Positions 3,803 through 62,665 of a stretch of 64,000 bases of DNA are shown here, piece after piece. The notes under the pieces are model-generated. The model searched no databases, was not told the origin of the DNA, and saw only the letters and a program-made list of their open reading frames with translations. Position numbers and translations under genes: made by a program. The DNA is from Puniceicoccaceae bacterium (GTDB taxonomy: Bacteria > Verrucomicrobiota > Verrucomicrobiia > Opitutales > JAFGAQ01): NCBI GenBank assembly GCA_028285755.1, contig JANQOQ010000004.1, positions 260,720-324,719 of the forward strand, in the 5' to 3' direction. Positions within the stretch are counted from its first letter, which is position 1; each line of letters starts with the position of its first letter.

Positions 3803-5494
3803 TTACATGTTGCGCTCGCGTGACCACTCGTAGACGCGCGGGATGAGGGCCAAGCGGAAGCCGATGCCGCCGTTGCGGCCTTCATTGAGGGCTGAGTGGC
3901 GGTATGCGGAGCGCAGGTGCTCTGCTTTGCTGCGCCAGCTGCCTCCACGCACGACCTTGCTCTTCACCCAGTGGACTTTGACAGGGTCGGTGACTTCGTG
4001 CGGCGCGTACTGGAGGTTGGTGTCGAAGCACCATTCCCAGACGTTGCCGTGCATGTCGTGAAGGCCCCAGGCGTTGGGGAGTTTCTGGCCGACGGGGTTG
4101 AGGCCGCCGTCGCTATTGTCGCGAAACCAGGCGATGGCTGATAAATCGTTATGGTTGTAGGGGGTCATCGTGCCCGCGCGGCAGGCGTATTCCCACTGGG
4201 CCTCGGTGGGCAGGGAAAAAAAGTAGCCCTCGGGCAGGCGACCAGCGGCGCGCTCCTGTTCGGTGAGGCGGCTACAGAATTCTTTCGCGTCGAGGCGGCT
4301 GACGTAATACATGGGGTAATCCGGGCCGGTCTGATACATAGGCCAGCTTTTGTTAGTCTCGTCTCTCAGGCTGGCGGGATCACTTTCCATGATGCGTGCC
4401 CATTGGGCCTGGGTGACCTCATATTTACCGAGCCAGAAGCCCTGGGATAAATTAACCGTGTGCAGGTTTTCGATGGCTTCGCGACCGGTCTCTTCCCCGG
4501 GACTGCCCATCTGAAAGGTGCCGGGTGCTATCCAGAGCATTTCGACACCGGCGACCGGGGTGAGCCAGTTTTCTCCAAAACTGGGTGCGATCTCAGGAAT
4601 TGCGGAGAGATCGATTGAAGGAGTTTGAACACTGGAAGCCGGTCCTTGCGGGAGTTCTGCGGTTAGCTGAGTTTCGGCGGGGGTTGCGGGTGTAATGACT
4701 TCGAGATTTGCACCCTGCTCGATCCAGAGCCTCAGTGTCTCCTGCTGCTCCTCGGTGAGGGGCTCGCCATCTTCCGGCATAAAGTCGGGATCCTCGGGGT
4801 GATAGGTAGTGAGGTAATAAAGGGGGCTTTCATCCGGTTCGCCCGGCACCACCGCGGGGCCGTATTCACTGCCGATTTCAATAAAGGCGAGCGTATCCAT
4901 GCGCAGCTCGGATTTTTGCTTATCCGGGCCGTGACATTCGATGCAGCTTGCTTCCAGGATGGGCAGGATATCGCGCTCAAACTGGAGCATGCCATCATCT
5001 ATTTCAACAAACTCTTCGGCTTTAAGCGGTTCACGGGCAGGTGCTGCTTGCTTTTCTGCAAACAAATGCTCGGTTAAGAAATCCCTGCCGTGCGTCATGA
5101 CCGCTCCGTGATGCGAGCCAAACACCATGAGCACCAAGGTCAGGAATAGGCAAACGCGGTAGCTTATAAACTGCCAGCGGTTCTCTCCCCTGCCCCATGC
5201 AAGCACAGTGGTAGCGGTGAGCAGCAGGGTCATGAATATGCCCAGCCATTTATGGAGCGTAACGGTGGCACCACTGTAGCCGCCCTCACTTTCGAGAAGC
5301 AGGCCAGTCACTACCGAGCCGATTGCCGCGAGCAGGGAAAGCGTCAGCAGGAAGCGACGCGCTGTCAGCAGCATCCTGACTTCGGAATCGCGCAAGAGCC
5401 ACTCCATGAGCACAACGGCAATGATGATGCCAATGGGCAAATGAACAAAAAGCGGGTGAAATCGACCCAGAGTGTATAAGATAGTTTCGAGCAC
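3803..5494 (-). CDS. Membrane protein: DUF2231-like + cytochrome c (PSCyt1) + FGE/SUMF1-like domain
   Basis: 563 aa in three parts. Residues 1-130 hold four membrane spans, with a histidine-bearing first helix typical of DUF2231-type cytochrome partners. Residues about 165-265 are a cytochrome c domain with one haem site, CIECH at 184-188, of the type found in planctomycetes and verrucomicrobia. Residues about 310-560 have the formylglycine-generating-enzyme fold (APGTFQMGS, LPTEAQWEYACRAG, MHGNVWEW, VVRGGSW, GFRLA). The cysteine pair that true FGE needs after RGGSW is absent (RSKAEHLRSAYRH), so it should not activate sulfatases. It is the last gene of the operon with the DUF1552 and DUF1592 genes, 27 nt after the first. 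Role unknown. Confidence 0.88.
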   Translation of the reverse strand: MLETILYTLGRFHPLFVHLPIGIIIAVVLMEWLLRDSEVRMLLTARRFLLTLSLLAAIGSVVTGLLLESEGGYSGATVTLHKWLGIFMTLLLTATTVLAWGRGENRWQFISYRVCLFLTLVLMVFGSHHGAVMTHGRDFLTEHLFAEKQAAPAREPLKAEEFVEIDDGMLQFERDILPILEASCIECHGPDKQKSELRMDTLAFIEIGSEYGPAVVPGEPDESPLYYLTTYHPEDPDFMPEDGEPLTEEQQETLRLWIEQGANLEVITPATPAETQLTAELPQGPASSVQTPSIDLSAIPEIAPSFGENWLTPVAGVEMLWIAPGTFQMGSPGEETGREAIENLHTVNLSQGFWLGKYEVTQAQWARIMESDPASLRDETNKSWPMYQTGPDYPMYYVSRLDAKEFCSRLTEQERAAGRLPEGYFFSLPTEAQWEYACRAGTMTPYNHNDLSAIAWFRDNSDGGLNPVGQKLPNAWGLHDMHGNVWEWCFDTNLQYAPHEVTDPVKVHWVKSKVVRGGSWRSKAEHLRSAYRHSALNEGRNGGIGFRLALIPRVYEWSRERNM

Positions 5495-5521
5495 TTGAGG
5501 GGCAGTTAAAAAAGAATCAGG

Positions 5522-6868
5522 TCAGACCATATCCAGGCCGCGCATTGTTCCCGTGGATGAGGCAAATCGATCACTCTCAATGCCCATACGCTGAATCATG
5601 GAAACGTAGAGATTGGGTAACGGGTAATTGTGTGCTCTGTCAAAGGCAATGTGCTGACCATGCCTGAAACCGCCGCCCGCGAACAGGATGGGCAGATTGG
5701 TATTCACGTGAGTATGCGCATTGCCGAGATTACTGCCGTAGAGCATCATGGTACGGTCCAGCAGGGTCTCATTGTCCTCCTTTACGGCCTTCAGATCATT
5801 CAACAGATCATCAATGAGCTTCATGTGCCAGTTATCAATCGCACGTAGTTGTGAGAGCTTTTCTTCATTTCTACCGTGGTGTGAAAGATTGTGATAACCA
5901 TTGGTGATTTCGTAGCCTTCAAGGTCAAGCGCCGGTGAGTTCACACTATCGAGCATGAGGGCGATTGAGCGTGTAGAGTCTGTCTCAAATGCCATGCGCG
6001 CCATATCATACATGAGCCGCACTTTTTCCATATATTGGCGCGGGTCCTCAGGGTTGAGGGGAACGGGTTCGTCCACCGTGGGTTTTGGCTTTTGCGCCCA
6101 CTCCTTGGACATTTCCATACGCGTCTCCAGCTCACGCACACTGGTAAAATACTGATCGAGGCGCTCGCGGTCCTTCCCGCCTACTTCACGCTGGAGCGAC
6201 TTGGTTTGGTCGGTCACGGCATCGAGGATACTCTGCCCGATGGAGAGCCTGCGGATTTGCTCATCCATCTCCTCTTCAGTGCCATCCATAAAGAGCATGC
6301 GATAGATGTCAGCGACATTTTCTTCACACGGGATGAGTACGCCCGAGTTCGTCCAGGAGAGGCTGCGTGCGCCCTGCGCTACATTTACCCCGAAATTCAA
6401 TGAAGGGAAGCGGGTAAGGTGGCCTATATGCTCCGCGATATACTTATCCAACGAGATGGTATTGCGGAAGCCGCTACGACCGGGGTTGGGTGCAGCCGTG
6501 AGAAAGCAATTGTCTGCCGGGTGACCGCCATCCACATCCGGGTGAGACACTCCGCTGAACACGGTAAAGTCGTTGCGATGCGCTTCCAATAGCTTGAGAT
6601 AGGGAGACAGCTCATAATCACGGCCCACCTCAGATGGAAAGAACTCTGTATCCAACACACCGAGGTTGTTACAGATGGCAAACATGCGGCGTGGTTTTAC
6701 AGTGGCCGGATTTAATGCGGTATTTGCAGACGCCGTGGCAAATGCAGGTTTCATGGATTCCAGCAAGGGCAAAGCCATTGCGACGCCGACGCCTCTCAGG
6801 AAACTACGCCGGGACAGGGTGCGATTGGTAGCAACATAGGGTGCATTCAGGAGTGTCTTTGTATTCAT
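5522..6868 (-). CDS. DUF1552 family protein, Tat-exported
   Basis: 448 aa. A twin-arginine signal is clear: RRSFLRG at residues 20-26, then a hydrophobic stretch and a likely cleavage near AFA at 44. The rest matches DUF1552 proteins, which occur in planctomycetes, verrucomicrobia and some proteobacteria, nearly always next to a DUF1592 cytochrome protein. The body has an alkaline-phosphatase-like feel ([35 protein letters not shown]), but no activity is established for the family. The gene starts 26 nt after the DUF1592 stop, so the two are co-transcribed. It probably works in the periplasm with that haem protein. Confidence 0.92.
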
Positions 6869-6894
6869 GGTATGGGCAAATTTGTAATCAGGAT

Positions 6895-9435
6895 TTATTT
6901 GTGCAAAAAGAGTTCACTCTGGACAATCTGGTGGATCAGCGTGCGGATACCGTAGCCGGAATACTCGGATTTTTCAAGAATCTGCTCCACTTCCGGACGG
7001 TCTCCGAATGAGACGGGTGCGCCTGTCGCGTAGGTTACGAGCTGGTTAGTCATGTTTTTTGCAAGGAGCTTTTCCTCGCCTACGAGTATGGTTTTTAATT
7101 CGTAAATATCTGCAAATTCACGGCCATCCCAAAGCTGACCACTGGCGTCGACGGGCTGCCCCCGGCTAAAATTGAAGAAGAGCCCATTGTGACCGGTGCC
7201 CTTGATGAGCTCACCGTCCCCGGTCGAACGGTAATAGTCGCGCCAACCGCCCATGACATCAAAGTTCTCAAGGGAGAAGCCGACGGGATCGATCTTAAGG
7301 TGGCAGTTGACGCAGGACGGGCTGTTACTGTGGAGTTTTAATTGTTCGCGGATGGTAGTCGCCCCGCTGGTGTCTGTTTCGACGGCCTCAATATTGGGCG
7401 GCGGTGGCGGAGGATGCATGCCGAGCAGGCGTTCCATAATCCATACCCCCCTGACGATGGGTGAAGTGTTATTGCCATCTGCAGTGACTTTCAAAACGCT
7501 CGCCTGGGTGAGGATACCGCCACGCGGACTGTCTGCCGGCAGCGTGACCCGTTGCATTTGAGCGCCCTGAGCGCGATTGATGCCGTAGTGATTTGCCAGG
7601 CGTTCATTGAGGATCGTGAAATCGGAGTCCACGATGGTTCGCACGCCGAGGTTGTGATCGAGCATTTCCCGAAAATAGAGGCGTGTCTCCCAAAGCATGG
7701 AATCTTCGAGCATGTCATCGAGCTGGTAATCCGGGTAAAGGACGGGATCAGGGGCGGTCTTGCGGATATGGCGCAGATCGAGCCAGTAATCGAGAAATGC
7801 GTATATAAACCGCTCAGAGCGATCATCATTGAGGAGGCGCTCGGTTTGCTGCTCAAGCACATGCGGAAGCATCAGCTCGCCCGTATTGGCAAGTTGCAAC
7901 AGCTCTGCATCCGGCGGGCTGTTCCAGAGGAAATAGGATAAGCGCTCAGCTACTGCGAGAGCCTCCAGCTTGCCCGCGTCCTCCTCGAAATAAATGAATG
8001 CAGGCGATGCCAAAACTCCCGTATACCCGGCAATCAGGGCCTCCGTAAAATCCACTCCCTTATCCATCGCAGCAACCACCACGTCCAGCATGGGCTGAAC
8101 CTCGGCATCCGTGACTCCCCGATTGTATGCCTTTTGCATAAAGCGCTTTAAGAGGCGCTTTGCGTCGACAGCGGACTCTCTGCTGATCACCCGGATATCA
8201 TCGCCGTGCTCTATTATGGGAAGATCGTCAAACAAGACACGATGGCTCGCAGTGGGCCACTCCTGATAGAGGGGGCCTTCCACCTCCAGCCAGCTAAAGG
8301 CCACTGCCGGACGTCCCTGAGGCACTGCCAAGGGGTTACCAAAATCGGGCGGGCGAATGCGTGGGAAACGCGTTGCATCCGGATGGATGGTCTCCCCTTC
8401 GAAGAGCCACACACGCATTTCAAATTCCTGGCGATCCGGCGTCACATCAATGGCGTGCAGCGGTCTGAGTTTGCTTGCATGCGTAGATGAATAAATCCTC
8501 ACCGGCTCTGAGCGCATGCCGCGACTGGCTTTATCGAAGGTGTTGCTGATTGTAACCGTTTTTGCGGAGAGTGTCAGATTATACCAGCCATCATGCGGCG
8601 CTTTAAACTGGCTGAACTGGCCATTGATGGGCTCAAAGTTACTCGCCATGACGGCCATGCTCTCATAAGGTTTCTGGGATTCGGGCCGCTTGGAACGGTC
8701 ATAGGCACTGCGCTCTCCGCGCATGATGTCGAGCTGCACCTCATAGTCGATCAGCGGAAAGTTGGAGCGCATAATCGGGCCTAGATAAACAGTATTCCAA
8801 AAGTGATTATCATCCCAGGCGTAATACCTGCCCTGCATGGGCTGGGGCTTATCTACCTGATGGATCATCGCCGCCCGCAGCGCATAGTCGGCAACATCCA
8901 GATAGCGCGATAACTGCACATAAGACATGTCCAGCGCTTTGCCGATTTTATTGTAGCCGTGATAAGTGGGATCCTCCGGTAGCGAATCTTTCACCTCGAG
9001 CAAGGGCAATTCAAGGAGCTCGCGCAGAGCGTTCTCGTATTCATAGCGGTTCAAGCGCCGTTTTACTGCACGTCCCTCCTTAACGATGCGGGCATCCTCA
9101 AAGTTAATTAACTCTTTTGCCAAGAGTTTACGAAAGTCTTCAATCTCGTGCTCAGCGGGCCTCGGTTTTTTCTCCGGAGGCATTTCCCCGGCAACTACGC
9201 GGTCATGAGCGAGCACCCACTTTTCATAAACCTGCGGGTCCCGCAGATCGCGCGGGAGCTGGGTCAAATCCAGCCCTGCCTCCTGGGTATCGGAATCGTG
9301 GCAGTCATAGCAGTGCCCCTGGAAAAAACCTTCCAGCTCAAAAAGCGCCTCAGTCGCCCCTATTCGACTGCAGCAAAGCAGTGTGAGCAATATTGTACTT
9401 AGCAGGCGAAAGCGTTTAGAAACAGGGGAAAACAT
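6895..9435 (-). CDS. DUF1592/DUF1588-type secreted cytochrome c protein
   Basis: 846 aa from the ATG at 9435, which begins a good signal peptide ([20 protein letters not shown]); a GTG at 9483 would add 16 residues before it and is less likely. An N-terminal haem motif CYDCH follows the signal peptide and a second, CVNCH, lies near residue 708. Between them are the DUF1587, DUF1595, DUF1592, DUF1588 and DUF1585 segments in the usual order; [14 protein letters not shown] directly after the second haem site is the DUF1588/1585 signature. First gene of an operon with DUF1552 and the cytochrome/FGE fusion. Such pairs are thought to form a periplasmic redox enzyme of unknown substrate. Confidence 0.93.
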
Positions 9436-9659
9436 AATGACCAAGTGATACTGAAGTCGTAGACGTAAGTTTAAGGAAATCACCCCAATAAAAAAGCCAA
9501 AAAAAAGGAGTTATCACCGAGATTAATGATGAGCTAAAACAGCCGTTTATTTACCGGATTTCGCTAATTAGCCCATCTTATTAGATTTAGAGAATCGCTA
9601 AAGATACCCTACAGTATTGGGGGACAACGTAAAATCCGACGTCACCGAGTTGATAAATC

Positions 9660-13562: not shown

Positions 13563-14717
13563 TTAGGTTAGACTTACCCAACGGCCTTCGCGGTTGCTTT
13601 CCACAATGGCATCGCACAGTTTCAATTCGTAATGCGCCTCATCAAACGTTGCGATGTCGGGCGGCAGATCAAACGCTTCATTGTCTATTCGCTCATAGAA
13701 AAGCCTGAAGACATTGATAAAAGTCTCCGGATACCCTTCCGCGTGTCCGCCGGGCAGGTAGGTCATTCCCCGGCTGCCTTCCAACATCAGCGCAGGGTCG
13801 CAAATCATACGCTCATTCGGTTTATCACGGTAGCCAATATTCAGATAACCCGGTTCATGACTGTCCCAGGTGAGAGTGGATTTGGAACCGGCAATCTCAA
13901 AAGTCGAACTATTCCTTTTACCGCCGCAGACTTGTGAGGCATGCATTACCCCACGTGCCCCATTGTCAAAGTGAAGCAGGAGTGCTCCGTAATCCTCCGT
14001 ATCCACCTCGATTTCATAATAATCCTCGGGCTTGAGCATCATATTCGAATACGTTTCCACTTCACCCTTAGGTCGCATACGATGTTCGTGCACGATTTTG
14101 AGATCTGCAAATACCTTCACAATCTTAAGACCCGTGATGTGGCATACCAGATCCATCCAATGCGTCCCAATGTCTGACATCACCCGCAGGGGCCCGCTTT
14201 TTTCAGAGAGCACACGCCAGTTGTAGTCAGTTTTATGAAATAGCCAATCCTGCAGATAAGTACCACTGATGTGAAAAACATCACCTACCAGCCCTGCCTG
14301 AACACGTGCCCGGGCTTCCTGGCACATCGGGTAAAAGCGCACATTATAATTCACCCCTGTCACTACGCGCTTATGCTTATGGGCGAGATCCACCAGTATT
14401 TGTGACTCCTCGACGCTCATTGCTATCGGTTTTTCGCAGAGCACATGCTTGCCCGCCTCCATAGCTTTTTTCGCATACTCAAAATGCGAATCATTCGGTG
14501 TTGTGATGTGCACGGCATCTACCTCATCATCAGCAACCAGCTCATCATAATTCGCATACGCCTTGGGTATATTGAGCCTCGCAGCGGCTTCTTGTGCTTT
14601 TTCAGGACGACTCCCTACGATGCCCACCACGGGTATTTCCATGCGCCGTAATGCACCTGTATGCGAATTGCCCATAAAGCCCGTACCGGCAATCGCCACT
14701 TTAATATCTTTTAACAT
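13563..14717 (-). CDS. Gfo/Idh/MocA family NAD(P)-dependent oxidoreductase
   Basis: 384 aa, cytoplasmic. Rossmann motif GTGFMG at 11-16, the diagnostic EKP at 95-97, and DIGTHWMDL with the catalytic Asp/His pair near 182. The closest named relatives by feel are inositol 2-dehydrogenases and other sugar dehydrogenases. First gene of a two-gene operon with the TIM-barrel isomerase. Start at the ATG at 14717; the 98 nt upstream separate it from the end of the AraC gene, which runs in the same direction. Confidence 0.92.
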   Translation of the reverse strand: MLKDIKVAIAGTGFMGNSHTGALRRMEIPVVGIVGSRPEKAQEAAARLNIPKAYANYDELVADDEVDAVHITTPNDSHFEYAKKAMEAGKHVLCEKPIAMSVEESQILVDLAHKHKRVVTGVNYNVRFYPMCQEARARVQAGLVGDVFHISGTYLQDWLFHKTDYNWRVLSEKSGPLRVMSDIGTHWMDLVCHITGLKIVKVFADLKIVHEHRMRPKGEVETYSNMMLKPEDYYEIEVDTEDYGALLLHFDNGARGVMHASQVCGGKRNSSTFEIAGSKSTLTWDSHEPGYLNIGYRDKPNERMICDPALMLEGSRGMTYLPGGHAEGYPETFINVFRLFYERIDNEAFDLPPDIATFDEAHYELKLCDAIVESNREGRWVSLT

Positions 14718-49486: not shown

Positions 49487-51151
49487 CTACTCCAAGACTT
49501 GATTACCTGCTAGAAGGCGATCTCTAAGCTTACTATAATCCACTTGTTGGACAAAAGTGTCATATTCGATAGCGAGACTTGCAGCCGTTGCTGCACTCTG
49601 GCCCAAGACCATGAATACGGGCTCCATTCGCATCGATCCAAATGCAATGTGGCTTGCACTTATGCAAATCGGGACGAGCAGGTTCGTGCAGTCCTCAGCT
49701 TTCGGCCTAATGGCCTTGTAACTAATGCTATAGGGCCCAGGCACACGACATTCCACATTGCCTTCATTCTTAACCCACCCTTCGGGTGTAATATAGCGTT
49801 GCACATTATGGGAATCCATTGTGTAAGCAGCCATACCGATAGAGTCATCTACAACCTTAAGCCCCTCACAATAGTGTTGGGTCATCACAAAATCACTCAC
49901 CATGCGCCGTGCTTCACGCACGTAGACCTGGTTCTGCCAGCCATCTTCGGTATCATACTCGTCCTTGCAGGTACCCCAACGAGAAATCTCATCCCGTATA
50001 TGCTGAGGAATCCGCGAGTGATTCGCCAGTGTCCACATGAGGCCTTGTTGATGTTTACGGATACGATCTCTGATCTCCTCACGCTCTTGGTAGGTGCCTT
50101 CCGGGTAACCGTAATTACCCCCCACCAGATTCGTCGAAAACCCGGTGCGATTGTTAGTATCGGTCTTGCGGTTGGGCATACTTGAGTTAATCCAGGGGAA
50201 CCCGTCAAAGCCCGCTTCGTAATTGCGGAAAAGAAGCTCATAGTTGATCTCGTCATACCCTTCCGGCTTAAAAAATGGGATACGATTCTCAGGATGATCC
50301 GTTAAGGTCATGCGAAAACAATAGGCCTGGATGCGCTTGTCACCAGCTCCGCTTTCACCGGGGCCATTTACATCAATTCCTGGCAAAACACCACTACCGG
50401 GGTCGCCGGGTATAATGTAGGGATCCACCCCGTCTACGAAATTATGATTGCGCTGGTTGCGGGACTGGGTGCCGAGCAATGAGGTGCCCATATAATTATC
50501 CTGCACACCATTCAGGGTTTCACCATATTGGCTGTTGGGTTCACGGCCAATCGCGTAAGTCACTCCTGCCGAAGCCATTAGATCTCCCTCATAGGTCGCA
50601 TCAATAAAGACCCTTCCGGTATAAATCTCACCGGATTCCATCTCAATGGAGACAATTCGCCCACCTTCGACGATTACTCCGGTTTCCCGATTCAGGCGTT
50701 GCGCATATTCAAACGATATATCCTCCTCAGCCAGCATTTTGTGAAAAACAGTCAATCCTGCAGAGGGCTCAAAGGTCCATTTGGTATCTTCATCCGGATC
50801 CGTTCTTGCCTGGCCAACATCCCGAAAGTCCTCTTTTTTTTGCCAGCGCCAATTTGCAGGATTATCATAGTATTTACGGATCCCCTGATAAAATTCGCGG
50901 GCTATACCCCCAATAGACTGCTTATTGCCAATGTCTGTCTGCCCCAACCCACCGGTCGTCAGCCCCCCCAGGCGATTGGTTGGCTCAATAATGACCACGG
51001 AATGATCCATCCTTGAAGCTTGAATAGCTGCAGCAATTCCGGCAGAGGTGCCTCCATAAATCACAATATCGTAATGATTTTCCGGTTCAGCAAAGAGAGG
51101 TTTAAAGAGTGCCAGTATAAAGACAATGCCTAGAATAATGTGAGACTTCAT
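49487..51151 (-). CDS. Secreted FAD-dependent oxidoreductase (PF12831)
   Basis: 554 aa with a signal peptide ([19 protein letters not shown]). FAD site [20 protein letters not shown] at about 27-46, then [29 protein letters not shown] near 190 and [19 protein letters not shown] at the end. Paralogue of 47539-49167. A TTTTGAGTAT motif lies 94 nt before the start in coding orientation, shared with the beta-helix, sigma and TonB-receptor genes, so it may belong to their regulon. Substrate unknown. Confidence 0.9.
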
Positions 51152-51245
51152 GAATGTTTAATTGATTTACGAATTGAGAAAATGCCCCATGCGAATAGGG
51201 CCTTGAGCCGATGGCTCAATATTAATGACAGTCAGGAAAGATTTA

Positions 51246-51255
51246 ATACTCAAAA
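51246..51255 (-). promoter_or_regulatory. TTTTGAGTAT motif upstream of the FAD oxidoreductase
   Basis: One of four identical 10-mers in the same orientation relative to a gene start; 94 nt lie between it and the ATG at 51151. It is followed by TAAATC, as is the copy before the beta-helix gene. Confidence 0.5.
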
Positions 51256-51353
51256 GAAAATGCACCCGGGCATCAGAAATTTCGCTCTTGGTAGTACGAA
51301 AAAGCGGGAAGGCTGATTTTAACAACCTCCCCGCAATTAATAACTCTAATTCC

Positions 51354-53540
51354 CTACAAAGTAGTAAACTCGATCCAGTTGACACGGCTTTGGCCGCCCG
51401 TCTTCACAATCACAAGGGTCTGAATGCCGCTTGTAGTCGTTACAGCCATATCCTTGTTCTGATAAGTGGTCCACCCCCCAGTAGTGGGGTTGATCGTGCC
51501 AATTAATGTTCCGGTTTCACTGCCTAACCGCACTTCCAACCCAGGCGTAGTGCCTGCATTCGAAGAGCAGCGAAAGGTTATAGTATCGATGCCGCTTCCG
51601 AGATCCACGTTGTTAAATCTTGTCCAGGCACTTCCACTGTCATAGGAAACGCTCACCCCACCGTCATTATTCTTAAGCGATGTAGAGTTTTGGGCGTTGT
51701 AATCTTCCGTTTGTATCCGGGTGGTAACACCCCCTCCGCTTCCACCGGCTGCGTAGTCAAACTCGAACCAGTTGAGTCGGCTTTGGCCACCGGTTCTTAC
51801 GATTACGAGATCATTTACTCCGGTAGTATTAGTGATATTTACCGTCATTTCCTGATAGCCAGTCCAACTGCCGGTGAACGGATTTACGGATCCCAGCAAT
51901 GTGCCGGTTTCGCTGCCCAGGCGGAATTCCAGACCTGGAGTAGTTCCTGCATTTGAGGATACCCTTACCCTGATTTGGGTAACGCCACCGTGGAAATTCA
52001 CGTTGTTAAATTTGATCCAGCTACCGCTACTATTAAAACCAACGGTCGTTCCGCCATCGTTGGTATATAGGGTTATTCCGTTTTGGCTGTTATAAGACTC
52101 TGCTTCTACAGTCGTCGTGCCTCCAGACCCACCAGTACCCCCTGAATCAGGGCCATACAGTGGCCACGAAGCCGCATAAGCGGGCTGAGCGGTCAGGAAG
52201 AGAGACTCTGGGATATCGTCCGTTGCGCTAAGCGCACCCCATACCATCGTTCCGCCATTGCCATTGGCATCCGTATTTTTGCGATTGGCACCGACATAAT
52301 GGTTGGTTCCGCTGGTCTTAATACCATTGGCTTCGACTTCATTGCCAATGAGATTCATCTTACTATTCAGAGGTTCCTCAGATCCTACCTTAACCTTTGC
52401 ATGATTACGGAAATATGTAGTGTATTCAGTGCCAAAATTATCTCCGAAATTATCATTATAGAGCTCTTCACCAAAATTTCCTTCCCACAAGTTGTTGTGG
52501 CATCCCTTTGAGTTGTGCTCACCGAAGTCCGCATAAGCATTATAGGGAGCATTCGCTACATTGTAAGCGATTACGCAGTGGCTTGTGCCAAACTGAGTTG
52601 AGTAATGGTGGCGCAAATCCGCTGCAACGTTATTGATGACATTTACGCGGGTGCTGCTTGGTATGGTGATACCATATTCCCAGCCACCGCCCCCACCAAA
52701 GCCATCGGCTACATCACATTGGGTAATCAAACCATCACGACAGTTTCCAACTTTGATATGCGATTGCGGAGATTTCCTACTGACAATATCTGTAACCAGT
52801 ATGTTTCGTGCCTTACTGATCACCAGGTTGTTAGAAAATTTGCCATTCGCGCGCACGCGCTCCATTTTGAAGTCACTTACTTTGATATTAGCAATGAGGT
52901 TAGTCTCGTAAACAGTAGTTTTGGTCTTATCAAAGACCACACCCAGTTTCATATCGAGAGTCAGGGTATTCCCATTTTTGGCGGTCACCCTGACAATCTG
53001 CTTCATGGTTTCATCCGCATCATTACCTTTTTGATGTTCCAGACGAAGGTAGTCGTTCACTGCAATACCTGCTGAGTTTGTCAGGGTAATTTGGTTATCT
53101 CCACGATTTGCGTTCGCATTCAGTGTATAAGTGGTCGCCTCATCACCCCCTTGAAAAACAATGCCGCTTATGACCTGAGTGCCTGGGAAGTCCAATTTAA
53201 AGATCGTCGTAGGACCATCCCCCTTGATCTGAACCCCTCCCTTCGTAATCTGGCACTTGGTCTTAAAATGATAGGTACCCGCAGGGAAATAATAAATCTT
53301 ATTGCCAGTATTTGCGGCTACAAGACTCTGAAGGACCGCACCTGCATCTACGGTATTATCATTTTTCGGAATTCCATTATTATTAACGTTAATCGTGGTC
53401 CATCCGCCGGGATCATTCCACTGAGTGTCTACCCAGCCTGCAGGGGGGAATTTGTTGGCATCAAGATCACCGTAGTCAAAAGCGTAGGAGCTCAGGGATA
53501 GGAGTGCACAAAAGCACGTTAGGAGTATACGTATTTTCAT
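51354..53540 (-). CDS. Secreted right-handed beta-helix (pectate-lyase-like) protein with two CBM6-type modules
   Basis: 728 aa. Signal peptide MKIRILLTCFCALLSLSSYA. Residues about 25-460 are a parallel beta-helix: GAVLQSLVAANTGNKIYYFPAGTYHFK at the cap, then repeated N/V-rich rungs (SRNILVTDIVSR, STRVNVINNVAAD). This is the pectate lyase 3/glycosyl hydrolase 28-like class; no catalytic residues can be named. A Gly/Ser linker near 465 leads to two CBM6-like modules, about 476-600 and 605-728, each ending SR-x-NWFEF or NWIEF. The same pair of modules ends the protein at 60993. A TTTTGAGTAT motif precedes it by 69 nt. Confidence 0.85.
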   Translation of the reverse strand: MKIRILLTCFCALLSLSSYAFDYGDLDANKFPPAGWVDTQWNDPGGWTTINVNNNGIPKNDNTVDAGAVLQSLVAANTGNKIYYFPAGTYHFKTKCQITKGGVQIKGDGPTTIFKLDFPGTQVISGIVFQGGDEATTYTLNANANRGDNQITLTNSAGIAVNDYLRLEHQKGNDADETMKQIVRVTAKNGNTLTLDMKLGVVFDKTKTTVYETNLIANIKVSDFKMERVRANGKFSNNLVISKARNILVTDIVSRKSPQSHIKVGNCRDGLITQCDVADGFGGGGGWEYGITIPSSTRVNVINNVAADLRHHYSTQFGTSHCVIAYNVANAPYNAYADFGEHNSKGCHNNLWEGNFGEELYNDNFGDNFGTEYTTYFRNHAKVKVGSEEPLNSKMNLIGNEVEANGIKTSGTNHYVGANRKNTDANGNGGTMVWGALSATDDIPESLFLTAQPAYAASWPLYGPDSGGTGGSGGTTTVEAESYNSQNGITLYTNDGGTTVGFNSSGSWIKFNNVNFHGGVTQIRVRVSSNAGTTPGLEFRLGSETGTLLGSVNPFTGSWTGYQEMTVNITNTTGVNDLVIVRTGGQSRLNWFEFDYAAGGSGGGVTTRIQTEDYNAQNSTSLKNNDGGVSVSYDSGSAWTRFNNVDLGSGIDTITFRCSSNAGTTPGLEVRLGSETGTLIGTINPTTGGWTTYQNKDMAVTTTSGIQTLVIVKTGGQSRVNWIEFTTL

Positions 53541-53609
53541 ATTTGTAACAGATTTTAGTGGGTATCTACGAGCTTAAGCTCTGCAGCTAGGACTTATGGG
53601 GAGGATTTA

Positions 53610-53619
53610 ATACTCAAAA
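53610..53619 (-). promoter_or_regulatory. TTTTGAGTAT motif upstream of the beta-helix gene
   Basis: Identical 10-mer, 69 nt before the ATG at 53540 on the coding strand; preceded by a T-run and followed by TAAATC. Confidence 0.55.
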
Positions 53620-53704
53620 AAATCTTTAGCGCTTGCGGGGAAATAGCTTCTTAACGGATAACAGCTGCAGCGTAATTTAACCACCCCACTTTTTTATGTG
53701 TTTT

Positions 53705-53714
53705 TTTTGAGTAT
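53705..53714 (+). promoter_or_regulatory. TTTTGAGTAT motif upstream of the sigma factor gene
   Basis: Identical 10-mer after a run of eight T, 71 nt before the ATG at 53786. It suggests autoregulation of the sigma/FecR pair. Confidence 0.55.
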
Positions 53715-53785
53715 AAACAGATGTTGGTTCGTCAAGAGTGTTGTCTGTGTGTGATTATTCTAATATTACCAAGGACAAATTGAAC

Positions 53786-54349
53786 ATGAATTTACCCCGG
53801 TTAAGCGCTAAAGAAAATGAATGGTTTATGAGGGAATTATACCCTCATCAATCCGTGCTAAACGCTTGGTTAAGAAGCCGTTACCCAACGATTCCACATA
53901 TCGACGATATTATTCAGGATTCATATTTGCGTGTATTGAAAATCAACCGGGAAACCAAGCTGAAGGCCCCTAAGGCCTACCTGTTTTCCACCGCCAGAAA
54001 TATTTGTATCGATTTTCTGAGGAAGGAAAAAATCGTTAAATTCCAGAACCTTTCGGATATGAGTGATGATATTTTCCCGGAAAATGATTTGGGCGTGCAG
54101 GAAGGGATTATCCGCAAGGAGGAATTTCAGATTTTGGCTGAAGCCATAAAGAAACTCCCTAAAAAATGCCGACGGGTATTCACACTTCGAAAGGTTTACG
54201 GCTTAAGCGTTCAACAAATCTCAGAAGAATTAAAGATCTCAACACGCACCGTGGAAAACCAGCTCTTCATAGGGGTAAGGAAGTGCCGCGACCATTATGC
54301 AAGTGTTGACCGGGAACTAGAATTTAATAGCATTAAGCAAGCAGGATGA
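53786..54349 (+). CDS. ECF-type RNA polymerase sigma factor (FecI-like)
   Basis: 187 aa from the ATG at 53786, preceded by AAGGA at a suitable distance; a GTG at 53738 would add 16 residues. Sigma region 2 lies at 20-85 (DDIIQDSYLRVLK, APKAYLFSTARNICIDFLRK) and region 4 at 115-168 (KKLPKKCRRVFTLRKVYGLSVQQISEELKISTRTVE in parts). It overlaps the FecR gene by 4 nt, which gives the standard FecI/FecR/FecA order with the TonB receptor. It would be released by FecR when the receptor binds its ligand. Confidence 0.94.
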   Translation: MNLPRLSAKENEWFMRELYPHQSVLNAWLRSRYPTIPHIDDIIQDSYLRVLKINRETKLKAPKAYLFSTARNICIDFLRKEKIVKFQNLSDMSDDIFPENDLGVQEGIIRKEEFQILAEAIKKLPKKCRRVFTLRKVYGLSVQQISEELKISTRTVENQLFIGVRKCRDHYASVDRELEFNSIKQAG

Positions 54350-55359
54350 AAGGCAATTACAGTAAAACTCAGCTAGATGAGGCATCTCGATGGGTCATTC
54401 TTCACGAAGAGGGACTTACTGAGAAACAGAAACGAGCCTTCGAAGACTGGTTGAAGGCAGACCCTGAAAATGAATCCTGCTTCTTCGAGCATCAGATGGC
54501 ATGGAGCAGCTTTGACTCAATGTCCACCTGGAAGCCCCAATACAGCAAAAACCCGAACCCGGATTTGTTTGATGAGCCCAAAAGGGGAAATCTGCGTCAG
54601 TGGCTGCCCTACATGAGCCTTGCGGCAATATTAGCCCTATGTTTTACATTCATCAACGCGTTTAATCTTAATAACCGGTCAAATTCATCTGAAGACAACC
54701 TACTATCCGTCGCCAGTGAAAAATACTTTCTCGAGGACGGCTCTTCATTTTACTTAAAATCGGGAAGCGAGTTCAGCGTCTCTTATACGAGTGAACAGAG
54801 AACCGTTTTTCTCGGAACGGGGGAAGCCATATTTACTGTTGCTCACGATTCGCTTCGACCCTTCGTGGTTTCAGCGGGCAATTCCCGCGTCACCGCACTC
54901 GGCACCGTTTTTTCGGTGCGATCTGGTTTCGAACACCTTGAGGTATATGTAACTGAAGGGCGTGTAAGGGTGGACAATAACACAGAAACTCAATCCGCCG
55001 ACCCTGATGAGAACATCATCGTTCCTGAATTGGTAGCTGGAGAAAAACTCACACTGGATAACAACCTGACAGAGGCCCCCCTGATTCAAAAATTCGCCCG
55101 CCAGGAATATGACAAGCAGACTTTATGGAAGGACAATTTGATCGATATGGTATCCGCGCCCTTATCGGAAATTATCAGTGAGTTTAACAAACACAATGAA
55201 CGAAAAATCATTATCAATGATACTGATATAAACAGCATAAGGATGTCAGTTTCAGTGAAACCGGACAATCAGGTGGAGTTTCTGGAATTACTCGAAGCCA
55301 CCTTGGGCATTCACACAGATATTCAGGAATCAGGGGACTATGTATTGTCTTTCCATTGA
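54346..55359 (+). CDS. FecR-family anti-sigma factor/signal transducer
   Basis: 337 aa. N-terminal cytoplasmic DUF4880-type domain at 10-55 (ASRWVILHEEGLTEKQKRAFEDWL in parts), one membrane span at about 86-107, FecR domain at about 125-225 (SGSEFSVSY, VVSAGNSRVTALGTVFSVR) and a C-terminal DUF4974-like part near 270-335 that would touch the receptor's STN domain. ATGA overlap with the sigma gene. Passes the signal from the outer-membrane receptor to the sigma factor. Confidence 0.94.
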   Translation: MKGNYSKTQLDEASRWVILHEEGLTEKQKRAFEDWLKADPENESCFFEHQMAWSSFDSMSTWKPQYSKNPNPDLFDEPKRGNLRQWLPYMSLAAILALCFTFINAFNLNNRSNSSEDNLLSVASEKYFLEDGSSFYLKSGSEFSVSYTSEQRTVFLGTGEAIFTVAHDSLRPFVVSAGNSRVTALGTVFSVRSGFEHLEVYVTEGRVRVDNNTETQSADPDENIIVPELVAGEKLTLDNNLTEAPLIQKFARQEYDKQTLWKDNLIDMVSAPLSEIISEFNKHNERKIIINDTDINSIRMSVSVKPDNQVEFLELLEATLGIHTDIQESGDYVLSFH

Positions 55360-55377
55360 GATAATTGTGTACATATT

Positions 55378-55387
55378 TTTTGAGTAT
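55378..55387 (+). promoter_or_regulatory. TTTTGAGTAT motif upstream of the TonB receptor gene
   Basis: Identical 10-mer, 72 nt before the ATG at 55460, lying just after the FecR stop. It is the expected place for a promoter that lets the receptor be expressed separately from the sigma/FecR pair. Confidence 0.55.
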
Positions 55388-55459
55388 ATTTAAAAATCCA
55401 TCCGTCCTGTGTGCGAATCATTGCACACATGATAGGCGAGATACCCCATAGATACACTG

Positions 55460-58400
55460 ATGCTACCCAAAACACATTTTTGTGGTATTGCACGAGCTGT
55501 AGCTGTGCTACAACTGACAGCTTGGAGTGTTCTTGGTGGATGGATGGCAACCGCAAATCCGTTGAATATCGATATACCCCGAGGCTATGCAATCATTACG
55601 CTGAAGGAAATCGCAGATCAGACGGGAATACAGATCATGTATTCGGACGCAGCTGTCGAGGGTATCGTAACCAATGCAGTACACGGCAGCTATCAGCCGG
55701 AAAAAGCACTGTATATCATGTTGGAAGATACAGGCCTCGAGATTGTTCAGACACAATCAAACACCATATATGGCGTGAGAGTGAATGAGCATATCGAGCC
55801 GGTAATCAGCAATGAAGACCTAAACCCAAAAGCTGATTCCAGTATGAAAAATATACAAAACAACCGAAAACCGAACAATACATTATTCGCAACTCTTCTT
55901 GCGGGTCTTATTGGTTCCACAGGCTCTGTCGTCGGGCAAGATGATCTTGCAGACGATGATATCCTGCTACTATCCCCATTCGTAGTCGATGCCGCTGAGC
56001 AGGATGGCTATGTAGCATCAACCACCCTTGCAGGAACTCGCCTGAATACACGGGTTGAGGACTTGGGGGCTGCCATATCCATTTATACCGAAGAATTCGT
56101 GGAAGACATTGGTGCGACCAATGGTAATGAGTTACTCATCTATGCCGTCGGTATTGAAGCAGGCGGTTCTCAGGGTAACTTTGCTGCCTCAGGCGCGAAT
56201 ACTGCGGGCATAAGAACCAACCCCCAAAATGCGGTCAGAACACGGGGACTGGCTGCACCCAGTCTAACCCGGGGACTTTTCGTGACTAACATTGGTTTTG
56301 ATAGCTACAATACCACTTCGGTTACCGTAAATCGTGGCCCCAATGGAATACTGTTTGGAATCGGTAGTCCTGCCGGTATCATAGACGCTTCTGTAAAGCA
56401 GGCGTCATTGTACGATAATTTTGGGGATATCTCTTTCCGGATTGGAGACAATAATAGCTTTCGTTCAACCTTGGATGTTAATCGCACACTCCTTGAAGAT
56501 AAATTGGCCGTTCGCATCGCATTGCTTTATGATGAAGAGCGCTTTGATCAGAACCCTGCTTTCGATATTGATGAGCGTTTCTTTGCTACGTTTACCTTCA
56601 AGCCGACTGAAAACACAACACTCCGCGCAAATTTTGAAGACGGCGAGATCTACGCGAACCGCCCGATCAACGTTTTACCATTACAAGGCTATAGTGATAT
56701 CTGGCTAAATGGCGGAAGACCTACCAATGACTGGACCTTTTGGGATGATCCCTCACGTAACCCCAATGCAGCCTCTCAACTGGCGCAACGGGAACGGGAT
56801 AACTCACTGATCGGTCAGCGAGACTTCTTTCTGCGTCCTGGCTTTATTTATAACGACGGCTCGATTGCTGGAGCAGGTCCCGATAGTGGGATCATGGGCG
56901 TAGTTCAAAACAGTGCAAATCGTGCAGGTCGTATCCGCCCCGGAATCTTCCACCCAACTGCTAATCAGGATAGTGCAAATGACGTATTTCAATGGCTGGC
57001 TACACGTAACATCAATACGGTCGCAGGCAGCCAGTTTCCTGGGGGTGAGCGCCCTCTGGGCATTGTTCCCCAGGGATTTACCGATTACAGTGTATTTCCT
57101 TTCAATGAACAGATGCTGGACGAAACGGCACGTCAGTTTAATGATTTCTATGCTGCGAATGTAGCGCTGGAACATCTCATCCTTGATGGTAACGCCGGTG
57201 TGGAAGTGGCCTATGACAAACAGGAATATAACTCGGATGGTCAAATTGCATTTGTAACCAATGGGGGCTCCAATCAAATACGTATAGATGTAAATGAGCG
57301 GCTTCAGGATGGAACGCCGAATCCAAATGTAGGACGGCCCTATCTGGTCAATGCTTCGGGCACCCAGAATAATCAGAGTATCGGGCGTGAGACTTACCGA
57401 GTTACAGCCTTCTTCAAGTTTGATTTTGCGGATATCAATGATAAATGGGGCAGTTGGCTCGGCCGTCACACGGTGACTGGTCTCTGGGAGCGCAATGAAA
57501 TTGACAATCTGAACTACGATACCCGCTTCACCAGTAATTTCATAGAGGACTCGGCACTCAGCCCTGCCTTCCAGAGTGGATCCCGCACGCCCTCACCGAT
57601 TGTGTATCTGGGACCCTCTATCCTGGACGGTAGCGATGTAAGATTGAACCCGATCCGGGTGGCCCCATTCGTGGATGGCACCTCAGTCAGCACTCGCTAT
57701 TTTGCTGCCACACCCAATGATCTCTCCCAGGGTGAATTCATCAATCGTGATATAACTGCGATTGAGTATACACGCCAGGGGCAATACACCAACGAGGTGA
57801 TCGAGTCTCAAGCCATAGTGCTTCAAAGTTACTGGCTTAATGATCTCATCGTAACTACTTTCGGCTGGAGAAAAGATACCTCTGAGGCACGGGCTTTTGC
57901 ATTGCCACAAACCTTGGATCAAACCTCATGGAGCTTTGATGATTTCGACCTATCAGGCAACGAACCCAATCGCGACAGTGGAAAGCCAACGAGCATGGGC
58001 ATTGTCCTTAAATGGCCGGAGCAGTTAATATCATTACCTGAAGGCACTTCATTTAGCTTGTTCTACAATGAATCAGATAACTTCACCCCAGCGGGCACCC
58101 GTATTAACCCTTACGGAGATAACCTTACTTCACCGAGCGGAGAAACCAAAGATTACGGCTTCAACCTCTCTATCAACGAAGGGCAGTTCAATGTAAGGTT
58201 TAATCTGTTTGAAACGGCTTCGGTTAATAACAGCTTCAATCCCGGCAATGTTTTGAGCCGGGCGACGCGTGATGGCAGCATTCAACTCGCCAATTTCTGG
58301 GCGGATGATTTGAATGATGTCGATGAGAACGGTAATCCGGCTCCGATTGATCGTCGTGCGGATTTCCAAAGGATTCTCGATGCCATGCCACCTAACTATG

Positions 58401-59182
58401 CAGAAGTTTATAGTTGGACCGGGTTTGTGCAGGATGATGCAGGTCTCTGGTTCGCAAACTTTACCGCACCGGGAGGAATCACCGACACGCAGGATTTTAC
58501 CGCTGAAGGTATGGAGCTTGAGCTCGTATATAACCCAACCAACAACTGGAGAATCCTTGCAAATGTAGCTCGCCAGGAAACCGTCAGAACCAATGTTGCA
58601 CCCTGGACACAGGACGCCGTGAATCGCCTCACGCCGGTTTGGAATGCATTGGCTGACGAACCCCGCGGAGCTTATCCGGACGGTTTTGCCCCTGGGGATA
58701 CCCTTCCGGATGGTACGGTTACCGTGGGCTCATGGATTCTTGAAAATGTTACCGTTCCACTTGCAGCAACTCTCGCAAACGAAGGACTGCCCAATAATGA
58801 GCAACGTGAATGGCGATTCAACATCGTTACCAACTACAAGTTTACCGAGGGTGTATTGGAAGGATTCAACGTCGGAGGTGCTTACCGCTGGCAGGATGAG
58901 GTAGGTATCGGTTTCCCATTCGAGCGAGATGCGAATGGCAACGTGGTCGCTGTCCAGGACAGCCCTTATACCGCCCCTGCAGAAAGCAATTTTGACTTCT
59001 TCATGGGGTATCAGCGCCGTATCATGGACGATAAGATCAATTGGAAGCTTCAGCTGAACATGAAAAACGTCTTTGGGGATGATGATCCTATTCCGGTAAC
59101 CTCCCAATATGACGGCACACCGGCAACAGTCAGAATTCCGCCAGAAAAGCGTATCTATCTGACCAGCACCTTTGAGTTTTAG
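55460..59182 (+). CDS. TonB-dependent outer-membrane receptor with N-terminal STN signalling domain
   Basis: 1240 aa. A first signal-like segment at 10-32 is followed by an STN domain at about 35-110 (ITLKEIADQTGIQIMYSDAAVEGI), which in FecA-type receptors signals to FecR. A second hydrophobic, signal-like segment follows at about 140-160 (TLFATLLAGLIGSTGSVVGQ) after Met129. Then comes the plug from about 180 (LAGTRLNTRVEDLGAAISI, VTVNRGPNGILFGIGSPAGI) and the beta-barrel ending in TFEF with the terminal Phe expected by the BAM machine. Likely imports an oligosaccharide or chelate. The neighbours (beta-helix and lyase-like proteins with sugar-binding modules) favour a saccharide. No SusD is present. 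Confidence 0.93.
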   Translation: MLPKTHFCGIARAVAVLQLTAWSVLGGWMATANPLNIDIPRGYAIITLKEIADQTGIQIMYSDAAVEGIVTNAVHGSYQPEKALYIMLEDTGLEIVQTQSNTIYGVRVNEHIEPVISNEDLNPKADSSMKNIQNNRKPNNTLFATLLAGLIGSTGSVVGQDDLADDDILLLSPFVVDAAEQDGYVASTTLAGTRLNTRVEDLGAAISIYTEEFVEDIGATNGNELLIYAVGIEAGGSQGNFAASGANTAGIRTNPQNAVRTRGLAAPSLTRGLFVTNIGFDSYNTTSVTVNRGPNGILFGIGSPAGIIDASVKQASLYDNFGDISFRIGDNNSFRSTLDVNRTLLEDKLAVRIALLYDEERFDQNPAFDIDERFFATFTFKPTENTTLRANFEDGEIYANRPINVLPLQGYSDIWLNGGRPTNDWTFWDDPSRNPNAASQLAQRERDNSLIGQRDFFLRPGFIYNDGSIAGAGPDSGIMGVVQNSANRAGRIRPGIFHPTANQDSANDVFQWLATRNINTVAGSQFPGGERPLGIVPQGFTDYSVFPFNEQMLDETARQFNDFYAANVALEHLILDGNAGVEVAYDKQEYNSDGQIAFVTNGGSNQIRIDVNERLQDGTPNPNVGRPYLVNASGTQNNQSIGRETYRVTAFFKFDFADINDKWGSWLGRHTVTGLWERNEIDNLNYDTRFTSNFIEDSALSPAFQSGSRTPSPIVYLGPSILDGSDVRLNPIRVAPFVDGTSVSTRYFAATPNDLSQGEFINRDITAIEYTRQGQYTNEVIESQAIVLQSYWLNDLIVTTFGWRKDTSEARAFALPQTLDQTSWSFDDFDLSGNEPNRDSGKPTSMGIVLKWPEQLISLPEGTSFSLFYNESDNFTPAGTRINPYGDNLTSPSGETKDYGFNLSINEGQFNVRFNLFETASVNNSFNPGNVLSRATRDGSIQLANFWADDLNDVDENGNPAPIDRRADFQRILDAMPPNYAEVYSWTGFVQDDAGLWFANFTAPGGITDTQDFTAEGMELELVYNPTNNWRILANVARQETVRTNVAPWTQDAVNRLTPVWNALADEPRGAYPDGFAPGDTLPDGTVTVGSWILENVTVPLAATLANEGLPNNEQREWRFNIVTNYKFTEGVLEGFNVGGAYRWQDEVGIGFPFERDANGNVVAVQDSPYTAPAESNFDFFMGYQRRIMDDKINWKLQLNMKNVFGDDDPIPVTSQYDGTPATVRIPPEKRIYLTSTFEF

Positions 59183-60992: not shown

Positions 60993-62567
60993 CTAGAGTG
61001 TAGTGAACTCGATCCAATTAACGCGGCTGTAGCCACCAACCGCTTTAATCACAATATCCTGAACCCCGGTGGTGGTAGTCACTGTCATATTCTTTTCCTG
61101 GTAGTTGGTCCAACTGCCCGTAGAGGCATTTATAGTTCCCAGTAAAGTGCCTGTTTCACTGTTCAGGCGCACTTCCAGAGTCGGTGTGACCCCTGCATCG
61201 GAGGCGCATCGGAATTTAATACTATTAATACCCGTTCCCAGATCAACGTTATTAAACTTCACCCATGCACTACCCCCCTGAAACTCCACGGTTTGCCCTC
61301 CGTCGTTGCTCTTAAGCACAGTAGCATTCTGACTATCGTAGGATTCCGTTTGCAATCGGGTAGTAACGCCACCACCCCCTGCGGCATAATCAAACTCAAA
61401 CCAATTCATCCGGGTTTGTCCTCCGGTCCTTACAAAAACCAGATCCTGAACACCTGTAGTATTTGTTATACTAAAGGTCTTTTCAGTGTAGTTCGTCCAA
61501 GATCCATTGTGAGTAGCAACACTGCCCAGGAGAGTCCCCGTATGGCTGTTTAACCTCAACTCAAGGCCCGGGGTCGTGCCTGCATCCGAGGCGATACGAA
61601 CTTTTATCTGATTAACGCCTCCCTGGAGATTCACATTATTATACTTGGTCCAACTGCCACTATTCGTAAATCCAACGGTTTGCCCACCATCGTTACTATG
61701 CAGCGAAGTTCCGTTCTGACTATCATAGCTTTCAGCTTCCACTTGAGTGGTTCCTCCGCCGGTTCCTCCCGGAGTTCCCCGAGGGGCGACTTCATTGTAG
61801 CTGCTGAAGGCGTCACCGATACGGATTTCATCATGATAGATCCAGCGCTTATCGACATCTGCAAAACCATCCCTCCAGTCTGGCTGATAAATGCCAAACT
61901 TTACATTATAACCAGGGCCTTCATTTCCGAAAATGAAATTGGATTTATCGACTTTCAAGGTGCCGTTATGCCAGACTTTAATGGCGCAATTCGCTGGATT
62001 GGGCGGATCAAACTTCATGTAGAGCACGAAGTCATGCCAGATACCTTTGGTAACCGTTCCCAAAGAAGAGGATGTATATACCCGGCTTGAGGATGTGTGA
62101 GGATTTACAGTCGAACCCCCATGGGTAATCGTAAACTCATTATTGCGGATATGCATTTTAATGGGATATCCCTTGGGCGATTCCCCGAGATTAAAATCCG
62201 CCTGATGCAAAATCTGGAAAAAAATGGAATCATGACTGTATTGATCGAAGATCCAATCCTCAGTCCCGCCATCCACGATGTAGACACTGAAACCCACCCA
62301 GTATTCACCGAAATCATCCAGATCGGTTACCCTCCAGGACTCATTCTTGAAGCCTGCCTGAACACCCACCTGACCAATAAGCGTGTGCTTGCCCGCATAA
62401 TTTCCTGATCGAACATAATTAGTCACTACACTGCGTGGGCCATTGGTGAGCAACCAGTCATTGAGGTTTTGATCCTCAAAGGTTTCGCTCTTGATGATAG
62501 CAGCCTGGACATGGCAAAACGCCATGGATACGAATAATATCGGGATAACGATTTTTTTGTGTAACAT
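60993..62567 (-). CDS. Secreted polysaccharide-lyase-fold (PF14099-like) protein with two CBM6-type modules
   Basis: 524 aa from the ATG at 62567, which begins a clean signal peptide (MLHKKIVIPILFVSMAFCHVQA). Residues about 25-265 form a jelly-roll of the heparin-lyase-I/PF14099 type: TFEDQNLNDW, YWVGFSVYI, FFQILHQAD, GIWHDFVLYMKF, IKVWHNGTL and KFGIYQPDWR. After a Gly-rich linker come two CBM6-like modules at about 275-395 and 400-524, closely related to those of the beta-helix protein (both contain NDGG, NNV and RxNWFEF or NWIEF). Likely binds and cuts an acidic polysaccharide. Catalytic residues were not identified. Confidence 0.84.
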   Translation of the reverse strand: MLHKKIVIPILFVSMAFCHVQAAIIKSETFEDQNLNDWLLTNGPRSVVTNYVRSGNYAGKHTLIGQVGVQAGFKNESWRVTDLDDFGEYWVGFSVYIVDGGTEDWIFDQYSHDSIFFQILHQADFNLGESPKGYPIKMHIRNNEFTITHGGSTVNPHTSSSRVYTSSSLGTVTKGIWHDFVLYMKFDPPNPANCAIKVWHNGTLKVDKSNFIFGNEGPGYNVKFGIYQPDWRDGFADVDKRWIYHDEIRIGDAFSSYNEVAPRGTPGGTGGGTTQVEAESYDSQNGTSLHSNDGGQTVGFTNSGSWTKYNNVNLQGGVNQIKVRIASDAGTTPGLELRLNSHTGTLLGSVATHNGSWTNYTEKTFSITNTTGVQDLVFVRTGGQTRMNWFEFDYAAGGGGVTTRLQTESYDSQNATVLKSNDGGQTVEFQGGSAWVKFNNVDLGTGINSIKFRCASDAGVTPTLEVRLNSETGTLLGTINASTGSWTNYQEKNMTVTTTTGVQDIVIKAVGGYSRVNWIEFTTL

Positions 62568-62665
62568 ATTTATAGGTATATATTTAGATAAAGCAGTAGC
62601 TACGTTGCGCAGATGATAGCGCAATCATTGAGACCTTAGTTTGGCGAAATGGGTTTTGCCTAATC

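Follow-up and report, generated by a model that had tools for sequence, protein, structure and literature searches.

Predicted two-box promoters link a FecI-like ECF sigma factor to its own gene and three neighboring genes in a Puniceicoccaceae bacterium

INTRODUCTION

In Escherichia coli, the sigma factor of the ferric citrate system, FecI, serves a single promoter, the fecIR genes are under Fur and are not autoregulated, and changes downstream of the fecA transcription start strongly reduce transcription (PMC9249621). Extracytoplasmic function (ECF) sigma factors typically recognize a −35 element containing AAC and a −10 element with the core CGT, and FecI-like ECFs have been named as an exception to autoregulation (PMC8103513). 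In Bacteroides polysaccharide utilization loci (PULs), such as PUL24, an ECF sigma factor and its anti-sigma factor control an importer together with saccharide-degrading enzymes (PMC11501099). TonB-dependent carbohydrate loci are also known from Verrucomicrobia, and sulfatase and planctomycete-type cytochrome genes have been noted in such genomes (PMC5615132).

Here, we analyze a cassette from a Puniceicoccaceae bacterium that encodes a FecI-like sigma factor, a FecR-like regulator, and a TonB-dependent receptor. It lies within a stretch of 64,000 nucleotides, the whole of which is referred to below as the window. We conclude with considerable confidence that a 10-mer repeated in the cassette, TTTTGAGTAT, forms the −35 part of promoters read by the sigma factor (positions 53786-54349), and we propose that the cassette works as an autoregulated surface-signaling system.

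RESULTS

Gene content of the cassette

The sigma factor gene (53786..54349, + strand) encodes a FecI-like protein with sigma2 and sigma4 domains and the recognition helix STRTVENQL. Both Sigma70_r2 and Sigma70_r4_2 scored above cut-off, the NCBIfam FecI models matched with an E value of about 3e-16, at scores below their curated cut-offs, and the ATG start at 53786 is consistent with that of the ortholog. The gene for the FecR-like sigma regulator (54346..55359, +) follows directly, overlapping by 4 nt, and contains DUF4880 and FecR domains, both above cut-off, and a weak FecR_C domain. The TonB-dependent receptor (55460..59182, +) combines a plug domain above cut-off with an N-terminal STN-like signaling domain (E value of 2e-5; 24.7 bits, under the curated cut-off of 28.4), and the FecA model aligns to its residues 31-110. 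Two genes on the opposite strand encode an FAD-dependent oxidoreductase (PF12831; 49487..51151, −), which has an N-terminal signal-like segment by eye, and a secreted protein with a putative beta-helix fold and two CBM6 modules (51354..53540, −).

A polysaccharide lyase gene (PF14099; 60993-62624, −) located near the receptor gene encodes the same CBM6 pair as the beta-helix-type protein and is without the promoter motif described below. The presence of the lyase, the beta-helix-like protein with its two CBM6 modules, and the FAD oxidoreductase in this neighborhood suggests that the receptor's ligand may be a polysaccharide. Elsewhere in the window (3803-9483, −), a cluster was seen by eye to resemble the planctomycete-type cytochrome and DUF1501/1552-like proteins of Verrucomicrobia and Planctomycetes.

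A predicted two-box promoter motif upstream of four genes

Four exact copies of TTTTGAGTAT, each oriented toward its own gene, are located at 51246-51255 (−), 53610-53619 (−), 53705-53714 (+), and 55378-55387 (+), at distances of 94, 69, 71, and 72 nt from the respective starts at 51151, 53540, 53786, and 55460. These sites, orientations, and distances are the same as those given in the initial annotation, which had further stated that the window holds no other copy and that about 0.1 copy is expected by chance. A fifth exact copy, which lacks a −10 box, lies within a reading frame of the Gfo/Idh/MocA type (14475-14484, −), and the expectation was too low: 55 copies are present in the 4.25-Mb genome, or ∼0.8 per 64 kb, while the reversed 10-mer pattern occurs 15 times. 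With 55 copies, nearly all of them in reading frames, TTTTGAGTAT by itself is only suggestive as regulatory evidence and is weaker than first claimed. On these counts, the 10-mer could simply be a common coding word (codons Phe-Glu-Tyr) that happens to precede these genes.

The doubt over the 10-mer is removed by a second box, since the sequence NGTC is located exactly 15 nt beyond TTTTGAGTAT at all four sites. The overall shape of the predicted promoters is a T tract, GAGTAT, 15 nt, and NGTC. The predicted promoter of the FAD oxidoreductase gene, TTTTGAGTAT-N15-TGTC, spans 51227..51255 (−), with the −35 box at 51246-51255 and the −10 box at 51227-51230. That of the beta-helix/CBM6 gene, TTTTGAGTAT-N15-AGTC, spans 53591..53619 (−; −10 box at 53591-53594). 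The predicted autoregulatory promoter of the sigma gene (53705..53733, +; −10 box at 53730-53733) and the predicted sigma-dependent promoter of the receptor gene (55378..55406, +; −10 box at 55403-55406) both read TTTTGAGTAT-N15-CGTC. The initial annotation had thus described the −35 part correctly and missed the −10 part.

In contrast to the 10-mer alone, the two-box form is restricted to the cassette. The pattern TTTTGAGTAT-N16-GTC has exactly four exact matches in the 4.25 Mb, every one in this cassette, and its reversed control has none in the same genome. The −10 box accompanies 4/4 of the cassette copies and 0/51 of the other 10-mer copies (probability, 2.9e-6), and a trinucleotide common to the sites at any of 16 spacings was obtained in 5/20000 random draws. 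The two-box form is also kept across genera in diverged intergenic DNA (see below). The explanation by chance is thus refuted, and we assign it a negligible probability. Across 86 related genomes, the exact two-box pattern gave five scattered single matches, which is not above the reversed control. Among the one-mismatch matches in the genome, inspected in part, several lie in reading frames and two precede genes of AAA-ATPase-like and TPR-like type, respectively; these matches yielded no convincing extension of the regulon. Within the window, the real sites have motif scores of 20.7-23.3 and the next best site scores 13.9; given this clean separation, the polysaccharide lyase gene at 60993-62624 is not predicted to belong to the regulon.

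The second box corresponds to the canonical ECF −10 element at an ECF-like spacing, with C as its first letter in 2/4 sites here and in 4/4 sites of the orthologs, whereas the −35 box departs from the canonical AAC, being GAGTAT here and GAGTA in the orthologs. The sites might also be read as housekeeping sigma-70 promoters, with TTGAGT as a poor −35 box that shares four bases with TTGACA and a −10 box at 17 nt, a spacing that is about right. The sigma-70 −10 element needs the A of TAnnnT. The −10 positions here are CGTCAA, CGTCCT, AGTCCT, and TGTCAT, always with G in place of A. A housekeeping promoter, moreover, would be neither restricted to one cassette nor expected to track the tree of ECF sigma factors, and we regard sigma-70 as a very improbable reader of these sites.

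Conservation of the promoter with the sigma factor clade

One relative of the sigma factor, from a different genus of the family, is 58% identical, and another, from a different family, is 49% identical. The upstream regions of these orthologous cassettes were compared, a check suggested in the initial annotation, and in both of these other genera the two-box motif lies upstream of the sigma gene as well as the TonB gene. The cassette of the 58% relative has TTTTGAGTAA-N15-CGTA before the sigma gene and TTTTGAGTAG-N15-CGTG before the TonB gene, and that of the 49% relative in the other family has ACTTGAGTAG-N15-CGTC and TTTTGAGTAT-N15-CGTG, respectively, so that TTGAGTA-N16-CGT is retained before both genes in both cassettes with equal spacing. 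In the stretches read, the orthologous cassettes carry the motif at the sigma and TonB genes only; the FAD oxidoreductase and beta-helix genes are predicted targets in this genome alone. Two further sigma relatives (49-51% identical) have AGGGGT or AAGGGA, followed after about 15 nt by CGTT.

When mapped onto a tree of 47 sigma factors, the five −35 classes can be explained by four changes, which is the minimum, compared with a mean of 12.5 after shuffling; the classes of the paralog promoters were assigned by eye, two GTGAGT members after their recognition helices had been seen. All GAGTA users fall in a single clade (support, 100/99), which is nested among sigma factors of the AGGG class. 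The sigma4 recognition helices are STRTVENQL, SHRTVENQL, and SSRTVENQL in the GAGTA class, xKTVE(A/T/V)(Q/H)I in the AGGG class, and HTVS(A/S)(Q/H)L in the GTGAGT class. A Mantel-type test of helix identity against the best shared promoter word over all cassettes gave no correlation, because the best word is picked from so many pairs that the measure becomes too noisy. Two TonB leaders from different families, L112 and L173, both have TTTTTCACCTGA with CGTC 14-15 nt on, and the associated helix, VNTVATQLK, is identical; TTTTTCACCTGA...CGTC is thus a candidate further promoter class kept across families.

A position 69-94 nt upstream of the genes would also suit an activator site, and the motif could accordingly be an operator at which some other DNA-binding protein regulates the four genes together, and not the promoter of the sigma factor. 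The motif, however, is neither palindromic nor directly repeated, and a second box follows it at a fixed ECF-like spacing. Its distribution tracks the sigma clade, and the sister cassettes place other motifs in this same arrangement. We consider such an operator unlikely, if less so than a housekeeping promoter. The initial annotation had predicted a promoter or operator class read by this sigma factor, and a promoter class is the best-supported reading, given the spacing of the second box, its conservation in two genera, and a −35 box that follows the sigma phylogeny. We infer that the sigma factor recognizes all four predicted promoters.

Predicted private promoters in sister cassettes of the same genome

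Cassettes with this gene order recur across the genome, which has 38 FecR paralogs and about 39 FecI-like sigma paralogs. Four of the ∼38 FecI/FecR cassettes in the 4.25 Mb form two divergent pairs (C3:33066/33733 and C15:789420/790174). At least six other cassettes have the same promoter geometry with private −35/−10 sequences at their sigma and TonB genes. For example, TTTTCAGGGT-N15-CGTT has two genome matches, one ahead of the sigma gene and one ahead of the TonB gene in a single cassette, and TAGTGAGT-N14-RGTC has six, all in two cassettes (two and four matches). In the cassette with four matches (L120, C15:883515-888682), the predicted promoters are located at genes for a sulfatase, the sigma factor and FecR, a secreted lyase-like protein, and the TonB receptor, making this cassette a second predicted four-promoter private regulon.

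To compare cassettes without fixed −10 letters, all spacings from 9 to 35 were scanned. Promoters of the sigma and TonB genes match better within than between cassettes (0/20000 permutations), with an excess that is highest when 21-22 nt separate the T tract from the −10 box and that holds with the window's cassette omitted. A stricter version, which demanded GT among the −10 letters and made no use of a T tract, gave no overall signal (p of about 0.10), since the −10 boxes of several sister cassettes are different (AGTC, TCAC, and GCTC). The within-cassette effect stems from a subset of the cassettes: a clear private promoter pair is present in about 7/38, and such pairing is not general among the cassettes.

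Stem-loops in the leaders of target genes

In the first 40 nt past the −10 box, short stable stem-loops are predicted for all three target genes in the window. The FAD oxidoreductase leader contains TTGAGCC-ATC-GGCTCAA (51203..51219, −; −9.1 kcal/mol, z of −1.6), the beta-helix leader contains CTGC-A-GAGC-TTAA-GCTC-GTAG (53566..53586, −; −8.8 kcal/mol, z of −2.2), and the receptor leader contains TGTGTGCGA-ATCA-TTGCACACA (55408..55429, +; −11.6 kcal/mol, z of −2.4). The same 40 nt of the sigma leader contain no stable stem-loop. Over eleven cassettes, the mean z was −3.0 for 14 target leaders versus +0.1 for 11 sigma leaders (rank test, p of 3e-5), and in a second set, picked on promoter letters only, z was below −1.5 in 7/11 TonB leaders. 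The stem sequences vary among cassettes, with the pairing retained. In many sister TonB leaders, the stem-loop is followed by ATGA or GTGA.

No Rfam family matched the leader stem-loops. A function as terminators was ruled out, as no T tract lies behind them and they are positioned just after promoters. We suggest that the stem-loop marks high-output targets, acting through mRNA stability or at a step after polymerase binding. A role in the start region is plausible because changes downstream of the fecA start cut transcription (PMC9249621). As far as we found, a stem-loop restricted to target promoters is undescribed, and it raises the question of how the expression of the sigma factor and that of its targets are set apart.

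DISCUSSION

Because the two-part form is found at only four places in the genome, upstream of the sigma gene and of three neighbors, the cassette very probably switches itself on through a private promoter. The initial annotation proposed a regulon that joins the four genes, and their membership in one private regulon is supported by the genome-wide uniqueness of the two-box pattern. From what the DNA itself displays, namely, the predicted promoters, their uniqueness in the genome, their conservation with the sigma clade, and the stem-loops, we infer the ligand, activation, and transcription steps as follows. A ligand, possibly a saccharide, would bind the TonB receptor, and the signal would pass via the STN domain to FecR, which would free or activate the sigma factor. 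The sigma factor would then transcribe its own sigma-FecR operon, providing positive feedback, as well as the genes for the receptor, the beta-helix/CBM6 protein, and the FAD oxidoreductase. A stem-loop on the three target transcripts, with none on that of the sigma factor, may raise target output by affecting mRNA stability or promoter clearance. The three neighboring targets would serve uptake and, probably, sugar breakdown.

A broader proposal is that dozens of paralogous cassettes coexist in this genome, their promoters co-evolving and mutually private, and that a conserved, target-only stem-loop raises or stabilizes target output. We advance it tentatively, at somewhat less than even odds. 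With the present analysis, what began as a sequence observation becomes a regulon open to experimental test. The set of paralogous sigma factors that one genome pairs with matching promoters would be useful for deriving an ECF recognition code and for building orthogonal gene switches, and the approach offers a prediction, made from sequence only, of which degradative genes go with a given nutrient receptor in bacteria for which manipulation is not yet possible.

With FecI/FecR/FecA of E. coli (PMC9249621), the cassette shares a sigma factor, a FecR-like regulator, and an STN TonB receptor in the same gene order, as well as a promoter of the sigma factor before the receptor gene (predicted here) and a start region that matters in fecA. 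It differs in its predicted autoregulation, with the sigma gene carrying this promoter motif here and in the two other genera; in two neighboring enzyme-type genes that also appear to have the promoter of the sigma factor; and in its surroundings, where no iron link was seen and the neighbors are carbohydrate-type genes. The positive autoregulation predicted here and the CGT −10 box are features shared with autoregulated ECF sigma factors, although the −35 box is GAGTAT in place of their AAC, and this FecI-like cassette is predicted to be autoregulated in spite of the exception made for its group (PMC8103513).

As in Bacteroides PULs (PMC11501099), an ECF sigma factor and its partner would control an outer membrane importer and neighboring enzyme-type genes. 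The PULs have SusC/SusD importers and Bacteroidetes promoters, whereas no SusD-like gene was noticed here, and many private promoters are predicted in one genome. The TonB-dependent loci of Verrucomicrobia (PMC5615132) likewise have receptor genes beside secreted degradative proteins; they were described by gene content only, in a text that mentions neither a sigma factor nor FecR. For specialists, the features most worth testing are the target-only stem-loops and the private promoters of the different paralogs. Overall, the cassette is predicted to work like FecI/FecR/FecA, from which it would differ in its autoregulation and its non-AAC −35 box.
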